Shown here: piece by piece, positions 9,613 through 62,681 of the stretch
Layout: each line of letters opens with the position of its first letter
Numbering within the stretch: the first letter of the stretch is position 1
NCBI GenBank assembly: GCA_031275395.1
Contig: JAISOU010000042.1
Coordinates: forward strand, 1-64,000
Direction of reading: 5' to 3'
Length of the DNA: 64,000 bases
Source: Helicobacteraceae bacterium
GTDB lineage: Bacteria > Campylobacterota > Campylobacteria > Campylobacterales > SZUA-545
Notes under the pieces: generated by a model
What the model was told of the DNA's origin: nothing
Database searches by the model: none
Seen by the model: the letters and a program-made list of their open reading frames with translations, nothing else
Position numbers and translations under genes: made by a program

Positions 9613-11174
9613 TGTCCGCCTCCGCTTTTTGGTTCTTTCGCCGCGCTTTTTGTAGCTATAGGCTTTTTCTCCGCGCTATCGACAAGCCTAACAGTTGGTT
9701 TTGTGGCTATAGTAGGCTTTTTCTCCGCCTTGGCTTCGGCGTCATCGGCGGGTTTTTCAGTCTTGTCTTGCGCCTTTATTTCGGTTTTCTCTTCAACCTT
9801 CGCTTCCGGCGCTTTCGTCGCCTTTTGAGCGTCGCTTTCGGCGCTAGGGAGCGTTTGCGCGTTTGCGGGCTGAACGATCTCATCGGCGGGTTTTGCGGCT
9901 TCTGCTTTAGGCGCGCTAGGTTTTATAACCTTCGGCTCTTCTCGTAGCTTTCTTTCGCGCGCGCTAAGATACGGCAACGCGCCCAACATCAACGCCAAAA
10001 ACGCGACGGAAAGAAATAAGCCCATCCAAGAGTTTGGATCTTTCACGCCCGACGCGGGTAGTTTGCCGTATATCGTTAAGCCGACCAAAACGACCATCAG
10101 CGCCCAAAACCAATACTTAACAAGCGGGCGCTTGTGCATAGGAACGACAAGCGGATCGCGATCGAGCCAAGGCAGAACAAAAAAGACGACCTGAGCGATC
10201 GCAAAGGCTATCAGACCCAATCCCGAGCTAAAGAAAAATCCGCGAAGCACCTCATACGACCAAAGGAAATACCACTCCGGATAGATATGATCGGGCGTTT
10301 TCGTCGAATCGGCGGGAACAAAGTTGATCGCGTCCATTGCGAAGCCGTAGCTGAAAAAGGTAAGATAGCTAAAAAGAGCCAAAACTAGGCAGACGACGAA
10401 AATATCTTCCGCCATAAACTTAGGCCAGAAGGGCATTACGCGAGAACCTTTTTTGTCGCCCGCGAGATACTTTTTCGCCTCCTCCTCAAAATCCAGCTCT
10501 TCGCTCTCCTCGTTATTGACGTGCGGAGCGCGCAAAGCGTACATATGCAGACATATAACGCCGATAATAACGACGGGCAGTAAAAAGACGTGAAGCATAA
10601 AAAAGCGCGTTAGCGTCGCGTCTTCTACGACGTAGTTGCCCCTAATCCACACGACAAGATCTCCGCCGATTAAAGGAATCTTTTCAAACAGGCTTGTGAT
10701 CACCTGCGCCGCCCAGTAGCTCATCTGCCCCCAAGGAAGCATATAGCCGCTAAAACCTGCCGCGCTAAAGGTAACGAACAGTAAAACGCCGCTGATCCAT
10801 ATCACTTCGCGTCCGGATTTGAACGAACCGTAGTAGATCCCCGTGAACATATGGATATAGATAAAGAGGAACACAAGACTTGCCGCGACCGCGTGCATAT
10901 GCCTAAATACCCAGCCGTACGCAACCTCTTGCATAATGGTGTAATTAACGCTGTAAAACGCCGTTTGCGTATCTGGTTTGTAATACATCAGCAGGAATAT
11001 GCCCGTAACCACCAGTATCGTAAATAGCGTGGCGAGAACCATGCCAAAACTCCAGAGAAAGTTGATCTTCTTTGGAATCCAATACTCCGTGAGCATAACT
11101 TTCAGAAACGCTCTGCCCCAAAGACGCTGATCGAGCCATTCGCCCAAGCTGTTTGCTTTCTTAAAATGCGCCAT
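9609..11174 (-). CDS. petB: Cytochrome b subunit of the bc1 complex, with long charged C-terminal tail
   Basis: 521 aa. Residues about 1-410 are a fused cytochrome b: the quinol-site helix region GYMLPWGQMSYWAAQV, haem-ligand helices, and PEWYFLWSYEVLRGF (the PEWY Qo motif). The last roughly 110 residues are a soluble, low-complexity A/K/E/P-rich tail (EEKTEIKAQDKTEKPADDAE) with a repeated EKKP-IATK unit near the end. Epsilon PetB proteins usually stop near 415 aa, so the tail is an unusual addition. It catalyses quinol oxidation in the inner membrane, between PetA and PetC in one operon. Confidence 0.93.
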   Translation of the reverse strand: MAHFKKANSLGEWLDQRLWGRAFLKVMLTEYWIPKKINFLWSFGMVLATLFTILVVTGIFLLMYYKPDTQTAFYSVNYTIMQEVAYGWVFRHMHAVAASLVFLFIYIHMFTGIYYGSFKSGREVIWISGVLLFVTFSAAGFSGYMLPWGQMSYWAAQVITSLFEKIPLIGGDLVVWIRGNYVVEDATLTRFFMLHVFLLPVVIIGVICLHMYALRAPHVNNEESEELDFEEEAKKYLAGDKKGSRVMPFWPKFMAEDIFVVCLVLALFSYLTFFSYGFAMDAINFVPADSTKTPDHIYPEWYFLWSYEVLRGFFFSSGLGLIAFAIAQVVFFVLPWLDRDPLVVPMHKRPLVKYWFWALMVVLVGLTIYGKLPASGVKDPNSWMGLFLSVAFLALMLGALPYLSARERKLREEPKVIKPSAPKAEAAKPADEIVQPANAQTLPSAESDAQKATKAPEAKVEEKTEIKAQDKTEKPADDAEAKAEKKPTIATKPTVRLVDSAEKKPIATKSAAKEPKSGGGQ

Positions 11175-16932: not shown

Positions 16933-18822
16933 ATGAGCAAGGTTATAGGTATCGACTTAGGCACGACCAATTCGTGCATGGGCGTTTTTGAGGCGGGAGA
17001 GGTCAAAATTATCCCAAATAAAGAGGGCAAAAACACTACGCCTAGCATCGTGGCTTTCACGGATAAGGGCGAAACGCTTGTAGGCGACAGCGCAAAACGT
17101 CAAGCGATCACTAATCCAAAAAAGACGATCTATTCGATCAAGCGGATTATGGGCTTGATGATGAACGAACAGAACGCTAAAAGCGCGCAAGCCAAAGTTA
17201 GTTATAGCATCGTCGATAAAGGGGGCGCGTGCGCGATAGATATAGAGGGCAAAATCTATACGCCGCAGGAGATTTCCGCAAAAGTGTTGATGAAGCTAAA
17301 AAAAGACGCGGAGGAGTTTTTGGGCGGGACGGTTACCGACGCTGTGATCACCGTACCCGCGTATTTTAACGACGCGCAACGCAAAGCGACCAAAGAGGCG
17401 GGCGTGATCGCGGGGTTAAACGTTTTGCGTATTATCAACGAACCGACCGCCGCGTCGCTCGCTTACGGTTTGGAAAAGCAAAAAGCGGAAAAAATCCTCG
17501 TTTATGATTTAGGCGGCGGCACTTTCGACGTTACCGTGCTTGACGTGGGCGATGGCGTGTTTGAGGCGTTATCCACAGACGGCAACGCGTTTTTGGGCGG
17601 CGACGATTTTGACAACCGCGTTATCGACTGGCTCGCCGAGGAGTTCAAAAAGGACAACGGAATCGATCTTAAAGCGGATAAAATGGCGTTGCAACGTCTA
17701 AAAGAAGCCGCCGAAAACGCTAAAAAAGAGCTTTCCAGCTCGACGGAAACCGAGATCAATTTGCCGTTTATTACCGCGGACGCGACCGGTCCTAAACACC
17801 TTGTCGTCAAACTCACCCGCGCCAAATTCGAGTCTATGATCGACGATCAAATCGCCGAAACGCTTTCGCACGTAAAAACCGCTCTAAAAGACGCGGGGGT
17901 GGGCAAAGAGGCGATCAACGAAGTCGTTATGGTAGGCGGCTCGACGCGTATCCCCAAAGTGCAAGAGGCGGTTAAAAACTTCTTCGGCAAAGAGCTTCAC
18001 AAAGGGGTTAATCCCGACGAGGTTGTAGCGGCGGGCGCGGCGATTCAAGGCGGCGTCTTGCGCGGGGACGTTAAAGACGTGCTATTGCTAGACGTTACTC
18101 CCCTATCGCTAGGCATTGAAACGCTCGGCGGCGTGATGACAAAACTGATCGAGAAAGGCACTACGATTCCCATTAAAAAATCGCAGGTTTTCTCTACCGC
18201 CGAAGACAACCAGCCAGCCGTGAGTATTCACGTGCTGCAAGGCGAACGGGAGTTTTCGCGCGATAACAAATCGTTAGGAATGTTCGAGCTTTCGGGTATT
18301 CCCAGCGCTCCTCGCGGCGTGCCGCAGATCGAGGTTACGTTTGATATAGACGCAAACGGTATTTTGAACGTAAGCGCCAAAGATAAAGGAACGGGCAAAG
18401 AGAACAAAATTACGATCAGCGGATCTTCCGGTCTAAGCGACGACGAGATCAACCGAATGGTTAAAGAGGCGGAGGCGCACAAAGAGGAGGACAAACGACG
18501 CAAAGAGCTTGTCGAGGCGCGCAACCAAGCCGATTCGCTAATCTACCAAACCGAAAAAACGCTGAAAGAAAACGAAGCCGCGATTAGCGCGGAGGATAAA
18601 GGCAAGATCGAAACGGCGATCGCCAATCTCAAAGAAACGCTCGGTAAAGACGGCGCGTCTAAAGAGGAGATCGAAGCGAAGTTAAAGGCTCTTACCGAAG
18701 CGAGCCATAAACTTGCCGAAGCGATGTATAAAAAACAATCGACCGAACAAAGCGGCGACGCAAGCGGCAATCAAGGCGGCAAACCCAAGCAAGACGACGT
18801 GATCGACGCGGAAGTCGAATGA
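16933..18822 (+). CDS. dnaK: Chaperone DnaK (Hsp70)
   Basis: 629 aa, full length. ATPase-domain signatures are [33 protein letters not shown] and [15 protein letters not shown]. The substrate domain contains [19 protein letters not shown]. The C-terminal tail ends DDVIDAEVE, close to the standard EEV-type end. An AAAGGAG site precedes the ATG. Third gene of the HrcA-regulated operon and works with GrpE; dnaJ is not in this window. Confidence 0.98.
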
Positions 18823-49950: not shown

Positions 49951-51255
<1,305 letters not shown>

Positions 51256-51457
51256 TTACCGATCTAAAGGTTAAAAGCAAGAATCGATCGTAAAATACGC
51301 GCGTTTTTAATGAAACGATAATTACCGACCAAGCGCTACCGTTTCGTCCTTTGCGCCTTGCGCTCCTCCGCTTCGTCGCGGGAATGATCGTCTATGTCAA
51401 GAAAGCTAGGCGGGAAATGGGACGCAGGCTTAATATAGAGATAATCGATTAAGATAC

Positions 51458-51486
51458 TTGACATTTAAGAAAAAATAGAGTATTGT
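51458..51486 (+). promoter_or_regulatory. Promoter of the sulfonate-utilisation cluster
   Basis: A perfect TTGACA (51458-51463), a 17-base spacer and TATTGT (51481-51486). It lies 30 bases before the leader ORF and is the only strong promoter I see ahead of ssuD. Confidence 0.65.
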
Positions 51487-51515
51487 TCGCTTTCATTTTT
51501 CAGACGGGGGAACAA

Positions 51516-51668
51516 TTGAAACAGGTCTGGCACATTTTTGGCGGAGCGGACGACGCTCGCGGCAAACGGAGGTTAGAGCGGATCGCGTCAAGCGGCGCGC
51601 TTAATTCGTTTGCGACGGCGACGGGTAACCTATCGGATAGCGTCGCCCCATTGGGAGGCGCGCTGTGA
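51516..51668 (+). CDS. Small leader ORF coupled to ssuD
   Basis: 50 codons from TTG 51516, five bases after GGGGG. The product ([20 protein letters not shown], then [20 protein letters not shown]) is unfamiliar, without cysteine or methionine enrichment. Its TGA overlaps the ssuD GTG as GTGA. Such coupling suggests a regulatory leader, or a 5' gene remnant. A CAGAC/GTCTG inverted repeat flanks its start (51501-51505 and 51525-51529). Confidence 0.4.
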
Positions 51669-52816
51669 GCTTGGATATTTTTTGGTTTCTGCCTACGGGC
51701 GGAGACGGCAGGTATCTTGGCAGATCGGATAGTGCTAGAGGCGCGAGTAACGCTTATCTAAGGCAGATCGCCACTACCGCCGAAGCGCTTGGCTACGACG
51801 GTTTGTTGATCCCTACGGGTAGCGGCAACCTTGATCCCTTTATTACCGCGGCGAGTTTGGCGACCGCGACAAGCAGGATCAAACTATTAGTCGCGTTGCG
51901 AACGACGACGGCGGGAAGCCCCACCGTGTTTGCTAGGCAAGCGGCGACGTTAGACGAAGCGTTAAACGGGCGATTGATATTAAACGTGGTGCCGGGCGCG
52001 TGGACTGAAGAGATGGCGGCGGACGGCGTATTTCTTAGCCACGACGAACGCTACGAAGCGGCGGACGAGTTTTTGACGCTTTGGCGCAAAATAATCAGCG
52101 GCGAAACCGTTACGCATAAGGGTAAATACTACCATATAGAAAACGCGAAAAACCTTTTTCCGCCCGTGCAAAAACCGCACCCGCCTCTTTATTTTGGCGG
52201 ATCAAGCGAAGCCGCGCACGATCTAACCGCTAAACATATCGACGCCTATCTAAGCTGGGGCGAACCGCCAAAGCAGGTCGCCGAAAAGATAGCCGACGTA
52301 AAACGAAGAGCGGCGAAACTTGGGCGAACCGTGCGCTTTGGCGTGCGCTTTCAGGCGATAGTGCGCGAAACAAACGAAGAGGCGCGGGCGGCGGCGAATA
52401 AGCTTATCAGCCGTCTGGACGACGAAACGATAAAGATCGCGCAGGAAAACCAAAGAAGTTCCGATTCCGTAGGGCAAAAGCGCATTACCGATCTACATGG
52501 CGGCAAGCGGGATAAACTTGAGATATATCCCAATATCTGGGCGGGTATAGGACTGATCAGAGGCGGAGCGGGAACGGCGATTGTGGGCGATCCAAAAACC
52601 GTTGTGGAGAGGCTTGAAGAGTATGTGGCTTTAGGCGTCGATTCGTTTGTTTTGTCGGGCTATCCGCATTTAGAGGAAGCGGTGCGCTTCGCGGAATTGG
52701 TATTTCCGCTGTTAAAAGGCAAAAAACGCCCATTTACGATCCAAAACAACCTCGTAACCGGCGGCGCGTTCGATACGCGGCTTTTAAGCGACAACAGGCA
52801 GCTAACCAGCGAATAA
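51665..52816 (+). CDS. ssuD: FMNH2-dependent alkanesulfonate monooxygenase SsuD
   Basis: 383 aa LLM-class flavin monooxygenase. From the start ([19 protein letters not shown]) to [17 protein letters not shown] it follows E. coli SsuD closely. [35 protein letters not shown] and [19 protein letters not shown] are family segments. The cysteine equivalent to E. coli Cys54 is replaced ([10 protein letters not shown]). SsuD cleaves C1-C14 alkanesulfonates to aldehyde and sulfite, using O2 and FMNH2. No SsuE reductase gene follows. GTG start, coupled to the leader ORF. Confidence 0.9.
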
Positions 52817-52871
52817 ACGCGATCGGCGCTATGGCGCCCGCGACAATTAAAAACAAAAAAAAGGAAAGAAG

Positions 52872-53825
52872 ATGAAAAAGTTAATGAAATTAACGTTGGC
52901 GATCGGCGCGATCGTTTCGTTTGCGTTTGGAGCGCCCAAAGCGGAGCTACGCATTGGCGCGCAACCTTACCCTCTCTACGCCCCGTTATGGGCGGCGAAA
53001 GAGCTTGGTTATTTGGACGAAGAGTTCAAAAAAGTCGGCGCGACATATACGTGGAACGTCTTTGGCAATGGACCGCTTGTAAATGAAGGCGTGCGCGGCG
53101 GTAGCATAGATTTAGGAATGATGGCCGATCTGCCCGCTATTATCGCTAAATCCGTAGGTTTGGACATTGTGATTTTCTCCAATTTCGGCATTGGGGAAAA
53201 GGCGCTCGCGCTGATCGTGCCTACCAATTCGCCCATTAAAGAGGTTAAGGACATTAAGGGCAAAAAGATCGCCTACGGCAAAGGCACTTACGCTCAACAT
53301 TTATTGGCGATTTTGGTTAATAACAGCGGCTTAAAAAATAGCGACTTCGAGCATATCAATCTCGCCGCCGGCGATATTCCAACCGCGATAAGAACGGGGC
53401 AGATCGACGGCGCGGTAATCTGGGAGCAGTATATTAGTTTGCTCACGGTTACTGGCGACGCGCGAGTGGTAGCCGACGGGACGGGTATTAAGTTGGGCAA
53501 CAATATATCCTATATTAAGAAAGATTTTGCCCAAAAACACCCCGAAGTTTTAAGCGCGTATATTAAAGCGGTAGAGCGCGGTTCGCAGTATATAAACAAC
53601 AACAATAAAGACGCGGCAAAACTGCTATCAAATACTTTCAAAACTCCACCCGAAACGTTGGAATTGGTTTTCTCGCACTTCGAGTATTACGCCAAGTTTC
53701 TACCGCGCGATATTGCGGAGATCGAGAAGGTGAAAAACTACGTCTTAAAAGAAAAAATTATCGCCAGAGACGTAAATATCAACGAGTTCGTTACGACCAA
53801 GTATATCGAAAGGGCGGGTATATGA
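52872..53825 (+). CDS. SsuA-type ABC substrate-binding protein 1
   Basis: 317 aa. Signal peptide KLMKLTLAIGAIVSFAFGAP, then RIGAQPYPLYAPLWAAKELG and GPLVNEGVRGGSIDLGMMAD. The fold is the NrtA/SsuA/TauA class that binds nitrate, sulfonates or taurine. AAAGGAAAG precedes the start. Its stop overlaps the next start by four bases. Blocks identical at DNA level to its two neighbours show recent duplication or conversion. Substrate not readable. Confidence 0.9.
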   Translation: MKKLMKLTLAIGAIVSFAFGAPKAELRIGAQPYPLYAPLWAAKELGYLDEEFKKVGATYTWNVFGNGPLVNEGVRGGSIDLGMMADLPAIIAKSVGLDIVIFSNFGIGEKALALIVPTNSPIKEVKDIKGKKIAYGKGTYAQHLLAILVNNSGLKNSDFEHINLAAGDIPTAIRTGQIDGAVIWEQYISLLTVTGDARVVADGTGIKLGNNISYIKKDFAQKHPEVLSAYIKAVERGSQYINNNNKDAAKLLSNTFKTPPETLELVFSHFEYYAKFLPRDIAEIEKVKNYVLKEKIIARDVNINEFVTTKYIERAGI

Positions 53826-54787
53826 AAGGCGCGTTTATTGCGCGGTTTGCGGCGATTGCGATCGCGCTTTTTGCCTTCGAGCTTTTCGCCGCGCAAAAGC
53901 CGACGCTTCGGATCGCCGCGCAACAGACGCCCGCTTACGCTTCGCTATGGGTCGCAAAAGAGCTTGGCTGGTTCGACGAAGAGTTCAAAAAAGTCGGCGC
54001 GACATATACGTGGAACGTGTTTTCGGCGGGACCGCTTGTCAATGAAGCGTTAAGCGCCGACGGCGCGGACTTGGGCGTTTCGGGCGATCAGCCCGCGATC
54101 ACCGCCAGATCGGCGGGATTGGACGTGATCGTCGTCGCCAATCTTGGATCGGGCGAGCGCACGATTGGGTTAATCGCGCCGCCAAATTCGTCGCTCAAAA
54201 CCGTTAAGGATTTCAAGGGCAAGAAGATCGCTTACGGCAAGGGATCGACGGTGCATCATCTGCTCGATCTGTTGCTCAAGGAAAACGGGTTAAGTAAAAG
54301 CGACGTGGAGCATATCAATCTAGGCGCGGAAGATATTGGCGCGGCGCTTGATCGCGGCGATGTGGACGGCGCATTGACGTGGGATCACACATTAACAAAG
54401 CTGATCTCCGAAGGCCGAGCGCGGCTGATCGCCGACGGCTCTGGCATAAAGCTAACCAACCGCGTCAACTACGTAACGCGATCGTTCGCCGAAAAACACC
54501 CGGAGGTTATCGCGGCTTATATCAGAGCGATCGATCGCGGCGCGCAATGGATTGAAGGCGACAATAAAGATGAAGCGTATAAATTGCTCGCGCCAATTTT
54601 TAAGCTAGATCGCGACACGTTTAGCAAAGTGTTCGCCAACCAAAAGCTCTACACAAAGTTTAGCAAGCGCGACCTCGACGAAATCCGATCGGTCAAAGAT
54701 TATCTGCTAAAAGAGCGATTGATTCGCAACGATATAGATATCGACAAGTTTATAACGACTAAATATATCGAGGCGGCTGGAATATGA
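53822..54787 (+). CDS. SsuA-type ABC substrate-binding protein 2
   Basis: 321 aa. Signal peptide ends near FELFAAQK. RIAAQQTPAYASLWVAKELG and KKIAYGKGSTVHHLLDLLL parallel protein 1. Pocket-region differences (QQTPAY versus QPYPLY; VSGDQPAITARSAGLDVIVV; DGALTWDHTL versus DGAVIWEQYI) suggest a different ligand. A 44-base block (53975-54018) is identical to 53016-53059 in protein 1. Coupled to both neighbours by ATGA overlaps. Confidence 0.9.
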   Translation: MKGAFIARFAAIAIALFAFELFAAQKPTLRIAAQQTPAYASLWVAKELGWFDEEFKKVGATYTWNVFSAGPLVNEALSADGADLGVSGDQPAITARSAGLDVIVVANLGSGERTIGLIAPPNSSLKTVKDFKGKKIAYGKGSTVHHLLDLLLKENGLSKSDVEHINLGAEDIGAALDRGDVDGALTWDHTLTKLISEGRARLIADGSGIKLTNRVNYVTRSFAEKHPEVIAAYIRAIDRGAQWIEGDNKDEAYKLLAPIFKLDRDTFSKVFANQKLYTKFSKRDLDEIRSVKDYLLKERLIRNDIDIDKFITTKYIEAAGI

Positions 54788-55740
54788 GGCGGCTAGGTTG
54801 GTTTGCCGCGCTCGCGACGTTACTATTTGCGCCTAATCTATTTGGCGCCGAAAAGCCGACGCTTCGGATCGCGACGACGCCATATCCGCTTCACGCGCCG
54901 CTATGGATCGCAAAAGAGCTTGGCTATCTGGACGAGGAACTAAACAAAGTCGGCGCGACATATACGTGGAGCGTTTTTGAAAATGGTCCGCTAATTAACG
55001 AGGCGGCAAGAAGCGGCGCTATTGATACGGCGATTTTAGGCGATCAGCCCGCGATCATCGCTAAATCGGTCGGGCTGGACATTGTGGCGTTTGCCAATAT
55101 CGCGGCGGGCGAAAAGGCGATGGCGTTGATCGCGCCTACCAATTCGCCCATTAAAGAGGTTAAGGACATTAAGGGCAAAAAGATCGCCTACGGCAAGGGA
55201 ACTTACGTACAACATCTGCTCGTTTTGTTGTTGGAAAAACACGGCGTAAAAAGCGACGACTTCGAGCATATCAATCTAAGCGTCAATGATATTCCGATCG
55301 CGTTGGAAAACCGCCAGATCGACGGCGCGCTAATATGGGAACATTACATCAGCTTGCTGACGCTTTCGGGCAAAGCGCGGGTGATAGCCGACGGCGAGGG
55401 GATAAAGCAAGGCAACATTATCGCCTACGCGCGAAGCGATTACGCCAAAGCGCATCCGCAAGTTTTGGCGGCGTATATACGCGCTCTTGATCGCGGCGCG
55501 CGCTATGTCGGCGATCATCCAAACGAAGCCGCCGCGCTACTTGCGCCAGCGTATAAGTTGCCGCTTGACGTAACCGCCGCGTCGTTAAAACGAATGGATT
55601 TTCACATCAAGTTCGCGCCGCGCGATCTAACGGAGATCGCAAGCGTACAGGCTTACTTGCTAAAAGAGAAAATTATCCGCAAAGAAGTTGATATTGCCGA
55701 CTTTGTTAGCAAGAAATATATTGATTTGGCGGGGATTTAG
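54784..55740 (+). CDS. SsuA-type ABC substrate-binding protein 3
   Basis: 318 aa with a signal peptide (WFAALATLLFAPNLFGAE). RIATTPYPLHAPLWIAKELG and DGALIWEHYISLLTLSG resemble protein 1 more than protein 2. A 63-base block (55134-55196) is identical to 53219-53281 in protein 1. Three tandem binding proteins with one permease and one ATPase imply several related ligands served by one importer. Confidence 0.9.
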   Translation: MRRLGWFAALATLLFAPNLFGAEKPTLRIATTPYPLHAPLWIAKELGYLDEELNKVGATYTWSVFENGPLINEAARSGAIDTAILGDQPAIIAKSVGLDIVAFANIAAGEKAMALIAPTNSPIKEVKDIKGKKIAYGKGTYVQHLLVLLLEKHGVKSDDFEHINLSVNDIPIALENRQIDGALIWEHYISLLTLSGKARVIADGEGIKQGNIIAYARSDYAKAHPQVLAAYIRALDRGARYVGDHPNEAAALLAPAYKLPLDVTAASLKRMDFHIKFAPRDLTEIASVQAYLLKEKIIRKEVDIADFVSKKYIDLAGI

Positions 55741-55743
55741 ATT

Positions 55744-56661
55744 ATGTTAAGACGGGCTGGTTTAGCGGCGCAATATCTAATTCCAACCGCGCTGATTATT
55801 ATCGCGATCTTGCAGATTCGGCAGCCCAATACTACATATCACGTTTTATCTATCGTTTTGCTCTTAACGCTGATCGCGAGTTGGAAGATCACGGGTATTC
55901 TCGATTGGAGTAGGCGCTTTACTATAAATCTCGTTTTATATCTCGTTTTACCCATAGCGCTGATCGCGATTTGGAAGATCGCGGATATTGTCGGCTGGAT
56001 TCAGCCCTATACTATGCCGCCGCCCGAAGACGTGCTAATGACGGGCGTCGAGTTTATCAAGGACGGTACGCTTTATCAGCATACCAAAGCGAGCATAATC
56101 CGCGTTTTGGAAGGCTTTGCGATCGCGCTGGTTTTGGCTCTTACGCTTGGGATTGCAATAGGGCTGTCCCCGCAGGTAGATCGCCTGACCAAAGCGATCA
56201 TACAGGTGGTGCAACCCATTCCGCCAATCGCGTGGATACCGCTCGCTATTTTGTGGTTTGGTATCGGCGAAGGATCGAAGATCTATATCATAGCTATCGG
56301 CGCGTTTTTCCCAATCTTAATCAATACGATTGAAGGGATCAGGAATATCGATCCAAAGTTTCTGGAGCTCGCCAAAGTGTACGAAACGTCGCGGCGGCGC
56401 GTGATCGCGCGAATAATCCTGCCTGGCGCGGCGCCGTTTATTATGGCGGGCGTGCGTCTGGGACTTAGTATGGCGTGGATTTGCGTAGTCGCCGCGGAGC
56501 TGATCGCGGCTCAGGCGGGAATCGGCTATATGTTGATGGACGGGCGCTCGCTCGCTCGTCCCGATATGGTCATTTTGGGAATGTTGATTATCGGCGTCGT
56601 TGGAAAGGCGCTTGACGATCTGCTACGCAAGATCACAAAAAAGGCGATCAAGTGGCAGTAG
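55744..56661 (+). CDS. ssuC: Sulfonate-type ABC transporter permease
   Basis: 305 aa, about eight hydrophobic segments including extra N-terminal ones (YLIPTALIIIAILQI and NLVLYLVLPIALIAIWK). The permease signature runs LELAKVYETSRRRVIARIIL, then PGAAPFIMAGVRLGLSMAWI (EAA loop). It pairs with the ATPase next to it, whose start overlaps its stop by ten bases. It sits in the inner membrane. Confidence 0.88.
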   Translation: MLRRAGLAAQYLIPTALIIIAILQIRQPNTTYHVLSIVLLLTLIASWKITGILDWSRRFTINLVLYLVLPIALIAIWKIADIVGWIQPYTMPPPEDVLMTGVEFIKDGTLYQHTKASIIRVLEGFAIALVLALTLGIAIGLSPQVDRLTKAIIQVVQPIPPIAWIPLAILWFGIGEGSKIYIIAIGAFFPILINTIEGIRNIDPKFLELAKVYETSRRRVIARIILPGAAPFIMAGVRLGLSMAWICVVAAELIAAQAGIGYMLMDGRSLARPDMVILGMLIIGVVGKALDDLLRKITKKAIKWQ

Positions 56662-57491
56662 AACCTATTGAGCAAATACGCGATTTAAGCAAGCTGTATC
56701 TTACTAAAGACGACGAGCCGCTAGTTCAGGTAGAGCCTATTTTGCAAATACGCGATTTAAGCAAGACCTTCGTTCGCAAAGACGCGCAAAACCGCGCGCT
56801 AAAAGGTATCAATCTGAACGTGGATCGCGGCGAGTTTATATCGATTATAGGCGCGAGCGGTTGCGGTAAATCAACGTTACTTAGAATTATCGGCGGGCTG
56901 GAGACGGCAAGCGAGGGCGAAGCGATCTTTGAAGGCGAGGCGGTAAGTAAGCCAAGCCGAGATCGCGGTTTTATCTTTCAGGATCATCGTCTATTGCCGT
57001 GGCTTACCGTGATCGACAATATCAAGTTCAGCCTGCCGCCCAATACGGAGGGCGCAAATGAAATCGCTTTGGAGAAGTTGGCGATCGTGGGACTAAGCGG
57101 TTTCGAGCGGCGTTATCCGCGAGAGCTTAGCGGCGGTATGTCGCAAAGGGCGGCGATCGCTAGAGCGCTTGCCAACAATCCAAAACTGCTGCTACTCGAC
57201 GAGCCGTTCGGGGCGCTTGACGCGATCACGAAAATACGCTTACAAGAGGAGATTTTGCGTATTTGGAACGCCGAGAAAATTACGATGATCCTTGTTACGC
57301 ACGACATAGACGAAGCGGTCTATCTTGGACAGCGCGTGGTGGTGATGGGCGCGGGCGACATCGACTCGATTCGCCGCATAGAGCTTAGCTCGCCGCGTAA
57401 CCGCGTAGGCGCTGATTTTGCGCGGCAAAAATCGGCGATCTACAAAGCCTTTTTCGGCGATCTTGAAGCGCCGTTTACTTATGCGATCTAA
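56652..57491 (+). CDS. ssuB: Sulfonate-type ABC transporter ATPase with duplicated N-terminus
   Basis: 279 aa from GTG 56652. Walker A GASGCGKSTLLRIIGGLE, Q-loop FIFQDHRLLPWLTV, signature ELSGGMSQRAAIARALANNP, Walker B LLLLDEPFGALDAITK and switch His VTHDIDEAVYLG are complete. Residues 3-26 (VEPIEQIRDLSK...) are repeated as residues 27-50 (VEPILQIRDLSK...), a 24-residue tandem copy ahead of the usual start. It energises the ssuC permease. Confidence 0.92.
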   Translation: MAVEPIEQIRDLSKLYLTKDDEPLVQVEPILQIRDLSKTFVRKDAQNRALKGINLNVDRGEFISIIGASGCGKSTLLRIIGGLETASEGEAIFEGEAVSKPSRDRGFIFQDHRLLPWLTVIDNIKFSLPPNTEGANEIALEKLAIVGLSGFERRYPRELSGGMSQRAAIARALANNPKLLLLDEPFGALDAITKIRLQEEILRIWNAEKITMILVTHDIDEAVYLGQRVVVMGAGDIDSIRRIELSSPRNRVGADFARQKSAIYKAFFGDLEAPFTYAI

Positions 57492-57642
57492 ATCGCCGCG
57501 AAACCAAAACGAATCTCAAGCGGCGCAATTGATGCGGCTTAAATTCTAATCGTCGGCGCTTTTTGTGAAAGTCGAACTTTACGCCATTGAAGAATCGCGT
57601 TATGTTCCGATATATGAGCAGGTTTTACTCAAAGGAGATTTC

Positions 57643-59662: not shown

Positions 59663-60154
59663 ATGAACGATAAAAAACCGCGCGAAGCGGCGCTACTAAA
59701 AGAGGCGCTCTCGCGCTTTAACGATGAAGGGGCGATCAGAGTACTTACGACGCTAGACGAAAACGGCGCGCCGCACCCCGTATGTAAAGGATCTTTGCGT
59801 TGGAACGGCGAGACGATCGAATCATGGGAGATTTTGGAAAGTTCGGAAACCAACCGCAATCTGACGCGCGCGATCTGGTTTGATAAGCCGATCGCGATCT
59901 TGCTGATCACGTCCGATAAAAAGGCGTACAAGTTTTCCGTAAAAGTCTCGCGCAACATTATTGCGGGCAAAGCCTTTACCCGCGAATACGAGGCGGCGCA
60001 GAAGCGCTTCAACGGACGCGGGATCGCGGGCGTGTGGCGCTATGAAATAGTGAGCGTCAAAGACGAAACGCCCGCCGCGCGAATCGACGAGGAACAAAGG
60101 GCGCGTCCATACTTTACTCATCTTGATCAACTTGCCAAAAGGGATAGCCAATGA
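59663..60154 (+). CDS. PNPOx-like FMN-binding split-barrel protein
   Basis: 163 aa. AIRVLTTLDENGAPHPVCKG, NRNLTRAIWFDKPIAILLIT, DKKAYKFSVKVSRNIIAGKA and WRYEIVSVKDETPAARIDEE match the pyridoxamine-5'-phosphate-oxidase-like beta barrel, which binds FMN or related flavins. Its stop overlaps the radical SAM start (ATGA), so the two are likely functional partners. It could supply reduced flavin to SsuD, or act on the radical SAM product. Confidence 0.75.
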   Translation: MNDKKPREAALLKEALSRFNDEGAIRVLTTLDENGAPHPVCKGSLRWNGETIESWEILESSETNRNLTRAIWFDKPIAILLITSDKKAYKFSVKVSRNIIAGKAFTREYEAAQKRFNGRGIAGVWRYEIVSVKDETPAARIDEEQRARPYFTHLDQLAKRDSQ

Positions 60155-61398
60155 GCGTGAAACGAAGCGAATTAACCTTTGACGAGGTGGCGGCGAAATA
60201 CCCCAATTTTCCTCGTATGCCGCTACTGAAAATCGATATTCAACGGCGCGGCGCGGCATATACGGACGCGGCGTTGGAGCTGTTTGATCCCGCCGTTCAT
60301 CAAGTCGGCGGCGCGCATATTTTTGGCAACCGCGACGGCAAAATTACGGGACGCCCCGAAGGTATGCTACTGCGCGACGGTACGTCGCTGGTCGTTACTA
60401 CGGCGCCGATCGAGCAAAATCCGTACCTTATCGACGCGATCGACGGCAAACTTTACGCCGTCGATCAGGGCAAACCGATCGAGCGCGTATGGTACTGGGA
60501 AAAACCCGACTATTACGACAAAAAAACAAGCGGCGGGATCGCAATGCAAAACGTGATCAGCGCGCGACCGCAACGACTATCGCTCTCGCCGTACCGTTAC
60601 TGCTGGTTTTGGAGCGAGGAAGGCGGCGGAGGGTGTAAGTTCTGCGATATTGTGAATAATCTGAAGCAGGCAAAAGACGAGATCGGTATGCCGACCAGAC
60701 TTAATCCCGCCGACATTAAAGAAACGTTAAGCGAGGCGCTAAAGGAGCGCGGGCGATTTACGGCGATCTGCGTTACGGGCGGTAGCGATATTCGCGGCGA
60801 TAGTCCGTTCGATAAAGAAGCGGATTATTACATCGAAACGTTGCAAACGGCGGGCGATTGTTTTAACGTACCCAAAATCCCTATTCAGCTAATCTGCACG
60901 GCGATGAAAAAAGATCAGCTCAAACGCATTTACGATAACACGCCCGTCTCTAGCGTTACGATGGATATAGAGGTGTTAGACGAGGAACAATTTAACCGCG
61001 TTTGTCCTGGCAAAGCGAAGTGGATCGGCTACAAAGAAATGAAACGCCGACTATTCGACGCGGTCGAGATATTTGGCGAAAACCGCGTGAATACGGGAAC
61101 GGTGGGCGGCGTGGAACTTACCGAGCCTACGCGCTTTCGCGACGAGAACGAGGCGTTAGAGCAGTACCTAAGCGAAGCGGACGACTTGGCTAATCACGGC
61201 GTGAGCGTTATACACTGCGTGTGGAATCCCAATCCTGGATCGGCGTACGCTGGAAGGCGCAACGGATCGCTAGAGTATTACGTTCGGCTCGCGCAAGGCT
61301 TACAGGAGATTCGGCGGCGGCATAACTTGCTAATCGACTTTGACGACTACCGCCGTTGCGGCAACCACCCCGATACCGATTTGGCGCGGGTTTTTTAG
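60151..61398 (+). CDS. Radical SAM protein A with stretched cysteine motif
   Basis: 415 aa. YRYCWFWSEEGGGGCKFCDI places cysteines at residues 151, 162 and 165: CX10CX2C, with the last two as in classical CxxxCxxC and the first moved away by a Gly-rich insert. CVTGGSDIRGDSP resembles a SAM-binding loop. The C-terminus has GSLEYYVRLAQGLQEIRRRH and FDDYRRCGNHPDTDLARVF. The N-terminal 150 residues are unassigned. It is paralogous to the next gene. Reaction unknown. Confidence 0.7.
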   Translation: MSVKRSELTFDEVAAKYPNFPRMPLLKIDIQRRGAAYTDAALELFDPAVHQVGGAHIFGNRDGKITGRPEGMLLRDGTSLVVTTAPIEQNPYLIDAIDGKLYAVDQGKPIERVWYWEKPDYYDKKTSGGIAMQNVISARPQRLSLSPYRYCWFWSEEGGGGCKFCDIVNNLKQAKDEIGMPTRLNPADIKETLSEALKERGRFTAICVTGGSDIRGDSPFDKEADYYIETLQTAGDCFNVPKIPIQLICTAMKKDQLKRIYDNTPVSSVTMDIEVLDEEQFNRVCPGKAKWIGYKEMKRRLFDAVEIFGENRVNTGTVGGVELTEPTRFRDENEALEQYLSEADDLANHGVSVIHCVWNPNPGSAYAGRRNGSLEYYVRLAQGLQEIRRRHNLLIDFDDYRRCGNHPDTDLARVF

Positions 61399-61421: not shown

Positions 61422-62681
61422 ATGAACGTCAAGAAACGCGAATTAACCTTTGACGAAGTCGCGGCGAAATACCCCGATTTTCCCCGCTTTGTATTGCTGA
61501 AAACCGACGCGCATCGACGAGGCGTGGCATATACAAACGCCGCGCTCTCCGCGTTTGATCCTGCGTTGCACCAAAACTTTGGCACGCACCTATTTGGCTC
61601 TCGCGACGGTAAAATCGACAAACGCCCCGAAGCGCTTACTATGCGCGACGGCACGTCGATCATCGGTTTGCCTACGCCGATCGAAAATAATCCGTATGTG
61701 GTCGATCTAATCGACGAACGGCTGTTTATAACCGATAACGGCGAGCCGATCGAAGAGGTTTTTTATTGGGAAAAGCCCGACTATTACGACAAGCGCACCA
61801 AAAACGGCGCTATTATGCAAAATGTGGCGAGCGCGCGCCCTCAAAGACTTTACGTTATTCCAAATCGCTACTGCCATTTTTGGACGGCGGACGAAGGCGG
61901 CGGCGGGTGTAAGTTCTGCGACATTGTAAATAACCTGAAAGCTCAACGCGAAGAGATTGAAATGCAAACGCGCATAAAGATCGACGACGTGCGCGAAACG
62001 ATCGGCGAGGCGCTTAAAGAAAAGGGCAGATACGCGGCGATCTGTTTATCGAGCGGTAGCGATTTTCACGGCGAAAAGCCGTTTGACAAAGAGGCGCGGT
62101 TTTATATAGACGTGTTGCAGGCGATCGGCGAGAGCTTTAATACGCCTAAGTTTCCATCGCAACTAATCTGTACCGCGCTGACTAAAGAACAGCTAAAACA
62201 ACTATACGATAACACGGGCATTTCTAGTCTAACGTGCAATATCGAGGCGTTGAGCGAAGATCTGTTTAACCGTTACTGTCCGGGCAAAGCAAAATGGATC
62301 GGTTACAAGGAGTGGAAAAAGCGGCTTTTTGACGCGGTGGAAATCTTTGGTCCAAACCGCGTGAATACGGGTTTTGTGGCGGGCGTAGAGCTTGCGCGTC
62401 CGTATGGAGTTAAAAGCGAAGAGGAAGGTTTGGAGCTTATCCTGAACGAAGCGGAGGATTTTGCGCGGCACGGCGTGAGCGTGATCTATATGGTTTGGCA
62501 ACCGCGACCGGGTAGCGAGCTTGGCAACCTTCATAATCAAACAAGCGGATCGCTGGAGTATTACGTTCGGCTCGCGCAAGGCTTGCAGGAGATTAGGCGG
62601 CGGCATAACTTGCTAATCGACTTTGACGACTACCGCCGTTGCGGCAACCACCCCGATACCGATTTGGCGCGGGTTTTTTAG
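61422..62681 (+). CDS. Radical SAM protein B with stretched cysteine motif
   Basis: 419 aa, similar to protein A over its whole length. Cysteines are at residues 151, 163 and 166 (NRYCHFWTADEGGGGCKFCD): CX11CX2C. ICLSSGSDFHGEKPFDKEA aligns with the SAM-loop region of A. The last 135 bases differ from gene A at only three positions. Tandem retention suggests either a heteromeric enzyme or two related substrates. Confidence 0.7.
   Translation: MNVKKRELTFDEVAAKYPDFPRFVLLKTDAHRRGVAYTNAALSAFDPALHQNFGTHLFGSRDGKIDKRPEALTMRDGTSIIGLPTPIENNPYVVDLIDERLFITDNGEPIEEVFYWEKPDYYDKRTKNGAIMQNVASARPQRLYVIPNRYCHFWTADEGGGGCKFCDIVNNLKAQREEIEMQTRIKIDDVRETIGEALKEKGRYAAICLSSGSDFHGEKPFDKEARFYIDVLQAIGESFNTPKFPSQLICTALTKEQLKQLYDNTGISSLTCNIEALSEDLFNRYCPGKAKWIGYKEWKKRLFDAVEIFGPNRVNTGFVAGVELARPYGVKSEEEGLELILNEAEDFARHGVSVIYMVWQPRPGSELGNLHNQTSGSLEYYVRLAQGLQEIRRRHNLLIDFDDYRRCGNHPDTDLARVF

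Follow-up and report, generated by a model that had tools for sequence, protein, structure and literature searches.

An expanded ssu operon with three tandem SsuA-like binding proteins in a Helicobacteraceae genome

Organization of the ssu locus

The window analysed here, a whole stretch of 64,000 nucleotides (nt) from a Helicobacteraceae bacterium, lies on contig C26 of a Campylobacterota metagenome-assembled genome (G000) of 2.08 Mb in 96 contigs. It contains an ssu-type sulfonate operon with the gene order ssuD, ssuA1, ssuA2, ssuA3, ssuC and ssuB, all on the + strand, in which the three ssuA genes (hereafter A1, A2 and A3) encode SsuA-like binding proteins (Table 1). The three genes stand in tandem and in one orientation in a common operon, and neighbours overlap by 4 nt. 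The nearest named relatives of G000 come from metagenomes, under the labels Helicobacteraceae or Campylobacterota; from the style of their isolate names, we take these closest relatives to be probably of termite-gut origin.

The SsuA proteins of Xanthomonas citri and Escherichia coli are the best solved relatives of A1, A2 and A3. The AlphaFold2 model of A3, the sole copy modelled, has a predicted local distance difference test score (pLDDT) of 86.3. Its fit to E. coli SsuA (2x26_B) covers 284 residues at a Z score of 33.5; for X. citri SsuA (3ksx) the Z score is 30.8. SsuC and SsuB are related to their namesakes and fall below the equivalog cut-offs (for SsuB, 202 bits against 395 with NF008420), and the importer is therefore named SsuBC-like rather than an equivalog. 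The sequence-only reading of this DNA proposed a single permease and a single ATPase for the three binding proteins, which fits the operon and is presumably the case; further NMT1-type permease/ATPase genes are present elsewhere in the genome.

The ssuC gene of G000 has an N-terminal extension unseen in the relatives. In-frame duplications within ssuC and at the start of ssuB were found in G000 only, and in none of the relatives read (eight for ssuC and five for ssuB).

Table 1. Genes, repeated blocks and motifs at the ssu locus of G000 and in related genomes
Feature	Position	Strand	Remarks
ssuD	51665..52816	+	Alkanesulfonate monooxygenase dependent on reduced flavin mononucleotide (FMNH2); NCBIfam TIGR03565 equivalog 534.4 bits, cut-off 518.2
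ssuA1 (A1)	52872..53825	+	SsuA-like, N-terminal leader; TIGR01728 SsuA_fam 158.2 bits, cut-off 163.5; phmmer best 3e4r/2x26 SsuA
44-nt block, A1 copy	53016..53059	+	A1 nt 145-188
63-nt block, A1 copy	53219..53281	+	A1 nt 348-410; probable donor
ssuA2 (A2)	53822..54787	+	Overlaps end of A1 by 4 nt; TIGR01728 190.1 bits, passes cut-off 163.5; best PDB 3e4r
44-nt block, A2 copy	53975..54018	+	A2 nt 154-197
ssuA3 (A3)	54784..55740	+	Overlaps end of A2 by 4 nt; TIGR01728 171.6 bits, passes cut-off 163.5
63-nt block, A3 copy	55134..55196	+	A3 nt 351-413; probable gene conversion recipient
ssuC permease	55744..56661	+	PF00528; SsuC model NF008470 194 bits, below cut-off 347
90-nt tandem duplication within ssuC	55830-55919 / 55920-56009	+	Copies 78% identical; adds hydrophobic segment
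ssuB ATPase	56652..57491	+	PF00005; aliphatic sulfonate/taurine/Sao ATPase models all below cut-off
72-nt-period duplication, start of ssuB	56658-56712 / 56730-56784	+	
163-residue protein	59663..60154	+	Probable flavin mononucleotide (FMN)-type split barrel; no family match; ssu-linked in relatives
Variant radical SAM protein 1	60151..61398	+	NF045502 158 bits, cut-off 125
Variant radical SAM protein 2	61422..62681	+	NF045502 163.3 bits; final 83 coding nt the same as in protein 1
83-nt run common to both radical SAM genes	61313-61395 and 62596-62678		Last coding bases
Amidohydrolase PF04909	62742..63587	+	69.7 bits (read as L086:743-1588); adjoins ssuD in relatives
50-codon open frame	51516-51668		Leader of ssuD in G000
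Scar between A2 and ssuC of G013	L039 ~10527-10688		
21-nt motif	G003:C77:6102-6122 (L037)		
21-nt motif	G006:C3:30052-30072 (L038)	-	
21-nt motif	G013:C10:12107-12127 and 17457-17477 (L039)		One precedes ssuD fragment
21-nt motif	G011:C25:1254-1274 (L040)		
21-nt motif	G001:C66:1142-1162 (L041)		

Distribution and age of the triplet

A search of 14 genomes of the family, G000 included, gave close A-type proteins in six: the full triplet in three (G000, G003 and G006) and partial sets in three others, namely A1 and A2 in G013, A1 and A3 in G011, and A1 alone in G001. A seventh genome, G002, has a contig that starts inside ssuC and stands outside the copy count. Single-copy A1-like loci are found in MS502 (L046), Gx485 (L048) and the Synergistaceae metagenome-assembled genome Po218 (L049; 50% identity). 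The order ssuD-A-C-B is kept in the relatives.

The proteins of G000 are 53.5% (A1/A2), 59.9% (A1/A3) and 53.2% (A2/A3) identical, and across the genomes orthologues share 82–91% and paralogues 51–63% identity. In the phylogenetic tree, A1, A2 and A3 form separate groups, with 2 label changes, the minimum possible; none of 200 label shuffles gave a value as low. Support is 100/100 for A3, 70/95 for A1 and 86/67 for A2, and three unassigned single-copy rows are placed beside A1. Since the paralogue grouping is common to two genera, the duplication appears older than their split, a conclusion that is well supported; the grouping does not fix the order of events. Duplication followed by divergence, as the sequence-only reading had it, agrees with groups that span two genera and with the enrichment of clade-fixed differences at pocket positions described below. 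Conservation of the triplet in relatives, which was one of its suggested checks, is complete in three of the 14 family genomes and partial in three more.

In G013, a scar between A2 and ssuC contains the leader motif of ssuD once more, together with the first 25 ssuD codons and the last 22 A3 codons. A radical SAM gene is inserted upstream of it, and this gene and the 22-residue A3 remnant occupy the place of A3. Separately, the ssuA-C-B set of the Synergistaceae genome is 50–60% identical to that of G000, which suggests either transfer between gut phyla or mis-binning.

Ligand pockets of the three binding proteins

In the SsuA of X. citri, the sulfonate is held by Gln36, Gly68, Gly86 and Ser141, with Trp185 turned towards the pocket (PMC3839906). 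The counterparts in TauA are Gln30, Gly61, Gly79 and Thr132, the amine is held by Glu106 and Asp205, and SsuA has Gly at the position of Asp205 (PMC6906117). The pocket list comprises nine positions from these two sources, aligned to their chains. TauA N55, D84 and S109 did not line up with the numbering of the chains and were dropped. For the counterpart of TauA L204/D205, where MAFFT gapped the TauA row, G211 and G212 were taken from the X. citri row; they equal the Gly186/Gly187 of PMC6906117 only given an offset of 25 that we derived ourselves.

In X. citri numbering, the residues of A1/A2/A3 are Q/Q/T at Gln36, N/A/N at Ala67, G/G/G at Gly68, A/G/G at Gly86, L/I/M at Glu113 (TauA Glu106), Y/T/Y at Ser141, W/W/W at Trp185, N/N/N at Gly211 and N/R/I at Gly212 (TauA Asp205). 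The sulfonate-coordinating set plus the pocket Trp is Q G G T W in A2, Q G A Y W in A1 and T G G Y W in A3. All nine residues are fixed within each copy, over eight A1-type, four A2 and four A3 sequences; the Synergistaceae row, which differs from A1 at two of the nine positions, was excluded from this count. Columns that are clade-fixed and differ between copies make up 6 of 9 pocket positions but 46 of the remaining 283 columns (Fisher p 0.0013, with columns treated as independent), and those that differ among all three copies 2 of 9 versus 11 of 283 (p 0.055). Different ligands are predicted for A1, A2 and A3 from these residues.

Identical pocket residues in all three proteins had been named by the sequence-only reading as the sign of simple dosage; the comparison shows residues that differ, and the reading survives. 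On the other hand, the segments that it took for divergent pocket segments (DGAVIWEQYI, DGALTWDHTL and DGALIWEHYI) contain the invariant pocket Trp, and the main differences lie elsewhere. Under simple dosage, redundant copies would provide more binding protein per importer, and the tandem copies in one orientation, their 4-nt overlaps, the common operon and the one or two copies of some relatives are all consistent with it. However, the orthologues of each copy are kept across genera while the copies are only 51–63% identical, and the pocket positions are unlike between copies; because these differences are clade-fixed, they argue against dosage. On these two grounds, orthologue conservation and clade-fixed pocket differences, dosage amplification was rejected as the main explanation, and we consider it very unlikely.

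Identical blocks and gene conversion

The 44-base block common to A1 and A2 and the 63-base block common to A1 and A3, both pointed out by the sequence-only reading, are exact in their coordinates and are the longest identical runs of those pairs in a scan of the codon alignment. Whole-gene DNA identity is 62.0% for A1/A2, 66.0% for A1/A3 and 62.3% for A2/A3. Two null models were used, a shuffle of whole codons and a shuffle of codon identity done separately for amino-acid-identical and non-identical codons, and the observed run lengths were reached under neither of them (0/2000 each; 95th percentiles of 21–29 nt).

Over the 63-nt block, A1 and A3 are identical at 63/63 positions in G000 and at 49/63 in each of the three other genomes with both copies. 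The A3 gene of G000 matches the other three A3 genes at only 48–52/63 positions, and the A1 gene of G011 at 60/63. Its residues there are KEVKDIKG, as in A1; the other A3 proteins have KRFEDIRG, and that of G011 has EKFEDIKG. Since the other A3 genes differ over the block and the A1 types match, A1 would be the donor and A3 the recipient, and the comparison is convincing for an A1-to-A3 gene conversion. The 44-nt stretch, in turn, is nearly unchanged in all copies and species, with 86–98% identity among orthologues and 37–44/44 matches in 20 A1/A2 comparisons in five genomes. Because of this conservation its identity is weak evidence of conversion: little or no conversion may be needed, and the match is probably far less surprising than the permutations imply. 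Local conversion, as the sequence-only reading proposed it, is well supported for the 63-nt block, but has weak support in the case of the 44-nt one.

It could also be argued that the blocks are conserved protein segments with biased codons and that no conversion took place. The 44-nt block suits this explanation, through the conservation just described and a cross-species match of 43/44 (G000 A1 with G003 A2). The 63-nt block does not, given its full identity to the A1 gene of its own genome and its distance from the residue-divergent A3 genes elsewhere; nor do the synonymous shuffles (0/2000), the A2/A3 tracts of G006 and G003 and the similar behaviour of the radical SAM pair. We regard an origin of the blocks by conservation and codon bias as unlikely.

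The longest identical runs are longer in 11 same-genome paralogue pairs than in 45 cross-genome pairs (Mann–Whitney p 0.0019, five genomes, the same-genome pairs not being mutually independent). Four runs lead, of 71 nt (G006 A2/A3), 63 and 44 nt (G000) and 39 nt (G003 A2/A3), against a cross-genome maximum of 32 nt. Whole-gene synonymous identity is barely raised, with 0.598 within genomes versus 0.570 between them (p 0.059), and exchange is therefore local. The 71- and 39-nt tracts span the signal peptide and stop just short of the first pocket position; identical tracts exclude differing residues by definition, so this avoidance of pocket sites is no independent evidence of selection. G011 has just two of the copies, A1 and A3. 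The signal peptide of its A3 is A2-like, and the loss of A2 reads like an A2/A3 crossover that deleted it. The radical SAM pair has identical runs of 83 nt in G000, 56 nt in G003 and 62 nt in G006, and at most 40 nt in cross-genome pairs of the two genes.

Linked genes and SsuE

In the relatives, the general order is amidohydrolase (PF04909), ssuD, ssuA, ssuC, ssuB, the gene of the 163-residue protein and radical SAM (NF045502), with parts absent or rearranged. The amidohydrolase of G000 lies downstream of the radical SAM pair, instead of preceding ssuD. Gx485 presents an interleaved, operon-like order (ssuD, 163-residue protein, radical SAM, ssuA, ssuC, ssuB, amidohydrolase), and G039, of another family, has a 48% identical amidohydrolase between ssuA and ssuB. 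A second cluster, with radical SAM and/or 163-residue protein genes and NMT1-type ATP-binding cassette (ABC) genes, is present in G000, G001, G003 and G006, and adjoins a 70% SsuD in G003 and G006. In a search with the radical SAM protein, matches at an E value of 1e-40 come from eight genomes, all of the same family.

SsuE, searched with TIGR03567, is above the cut-off in none of nine genomes and has zero matches in the six ssuA genomes (G000, G001, G003, G006, G011 and G013); other flavin reductases may be present. A profile search of the 163-residue protein against PDB sequences gave no match. Its AlphaFold2 model, of low confidence (pLDDT 62), is closest to FMN-binding split-barrel proteins (best E 2.3e-4), and this offers a lead to a possible SsuE substitute. 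In Rhodobacter capsulatus, another radical SAM protein and a nitrogenase-like enzyme for isethionate are encoded beside ssuCAB (PMC11423573).

These genes raise the possibility that the triplet feeds another organosulfur (or other anion) pathway made up of the radical SAM, split-barrel and amidohydrolase proteins, with SsuD as one branch. Their conserved linkage, the interleaved genes of Gx485, the second radical SAM/split-barrel/ABC locus, which adjoins an SsuD in two genomes, the lack of an SsuE match and the lost hinge Glu (see below) are in line with it. The case is one of gene linkage, however; SsuD is a full equivalog, and MS502 and Po218 have ssuA-C-B without radical SAM on their short contigs. 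Such a pathway is conceivable, if rather doubtful. With similar reserve, the triplet may be seen as the front end of a new organosulfur assimilation module of gut Campylobacterota, composed of SsuD, the NF045502 protein, a split-barrel flavoprotein as possible stand-in for SsuE, and the PF04909 protein. Most of these parts recur at the second ABC locus within the same genus.

Leader of ssuD

Five relatives carry a 21-nt motif, ACTAAGTTGATATACAAACTA, about 50–70 nt before ssuD; after the motif comes a conserved stretch that includes GTATCAAC and AGTTTGGAG. The motif is absent from G000, the window included, and the ssuD leader of G000 is different. A regulon-wide operator was rejected, as at no more than two mismatches the motif occurs solely before ssuD or an ssuD fragment, and five of the 14 genomes have it. 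A riboswitch or known RNA was also rejected, with no Rfam hit at the gathering threshold in window positions 51200–57600 or in L037–L041. The consensus fold of the upstream element has 0 compensatory pairs; it is neither supported nor refuted, because the 5′ arm was incomplete in two of the five rows, which started within it. The leader of G000 is filled by the 50-codon open frame, unseen before ssuD in the five relatives read.

Proposed role and relation to known systems

We propose, as a probable reading, an expanded ssu operon in which the triplet is kept for its differing pockets and homogenised elsewhere by short conversion tracts. The operon would scavenge sulfur from organosulfonates: the three periplasmic SsuA-like proteins would dock by turns on one SsuBC-like importer, and SsuD would desulfonate the cargo in the cytoplasm. 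Tandem duplication would have given the three proteins before at least two gut Campylobacterota genera diverged, and the copies would have been retained because their pockets differ. A2 combines the canonical Gln, Gly, Gly and Thr set with a distal Arg, and its preferred ligand would bear a second negative charge. In A1, Asn would make the distal end polar and neutral, with Ala for Gly86 and Tyr for Ser141; in A3, Ile would make it hydrophobic, and Thr in place of the sulfonate-coordinating Gln may mean a weaker or altered sulfonate grip. Conversion tracts would homogenise the signal peptide and the start of lobe II, outside the pocket positions.

Several points weigh against this proposal. 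A1 misses the SsuA_fam cut-off by 5 bits, SsuC and SsuB are both below theirs, and no SsuE was matched. The hinge Glu (TauA Glu106), common to X. citri SsuA, E. coli SsuA and TauA, is replaced by Leu, Ile or Met in the three proteins, and the ligand may therefore not be a typical alkanesulfonate. One SsuA suffices in G001 and at the three more distant loci. In the tree, the A1 and A2 groups have modest support and the position of the root is uncertain. The pocket test comprises nine positions from two papers; the second-best match of the 44-nt block is the cross-species one; and the run-length comparison includes interdependent pairs.

The SsuABCD(E) systems of E. coli and X. citri resemble this locus in the SsuD equivalog, SsuA-like proteins of the same fold, an importer of SsuB/SsuC type and a single operon, and differ from it in having one binding protein instead of three; here, moreover, no SsuE was found, the hinge Glu is replaced and extra genes are linked. 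TauABC has the same fold class, and A2 shares Thr132 of TauA at the sulfonate site, but the taurine-specific residues are lacking, with Asn/Arg/Ile for Asp205 and Leu/Ile/Met for Glu106 (PMC6906117). From gene order and residues, several binding proteins with differing pockets stand here beside one translocator. Such a layout is also seen in the Opp system of Borrelia, whose OppA binding-protein family we take to be unrelated to the SsuA-like one. In Borrelia burgdorferi, OppA1–5 share one permease and have distinct roles, with divergent ligand residues and pocket electrostatics (PMC7822543). That system transports peptides, and its separate roles were shown by mutants.

Both the use of several binding proteins with one permease and the SsuABCD system are thus already known. 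What appears to be new is an SsuA triplet that has been kept with diagnostic differences in the pockets, together with its neighbourhood, which is less expected than the sharing of an importer. Literature searches on tandem or paralogous ssuA, on radical SAM, amidohydrolase and ssuD together, on gene conversion with binding proteins, and on shared permeases gave no title or abstract start that describes the locus, which is no proof of absence.

The locus offers a small natural example of how binding proteins diversify on one importer, and the sister genomes carry one, two or three copies. Its defined pocket substitutions and documented conversion tract allow one to ask which residues determine sulfonate specificity, and what keeps tandem paralogues distinct despite conversion. 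In addition, the linked genes (radical SAM, split barrel and amidohydrolase) offer a lead to an SsuE-free supply of reduced flavin to SsuD, or to the opening of other organosulfur compounds, in gut bacteria.

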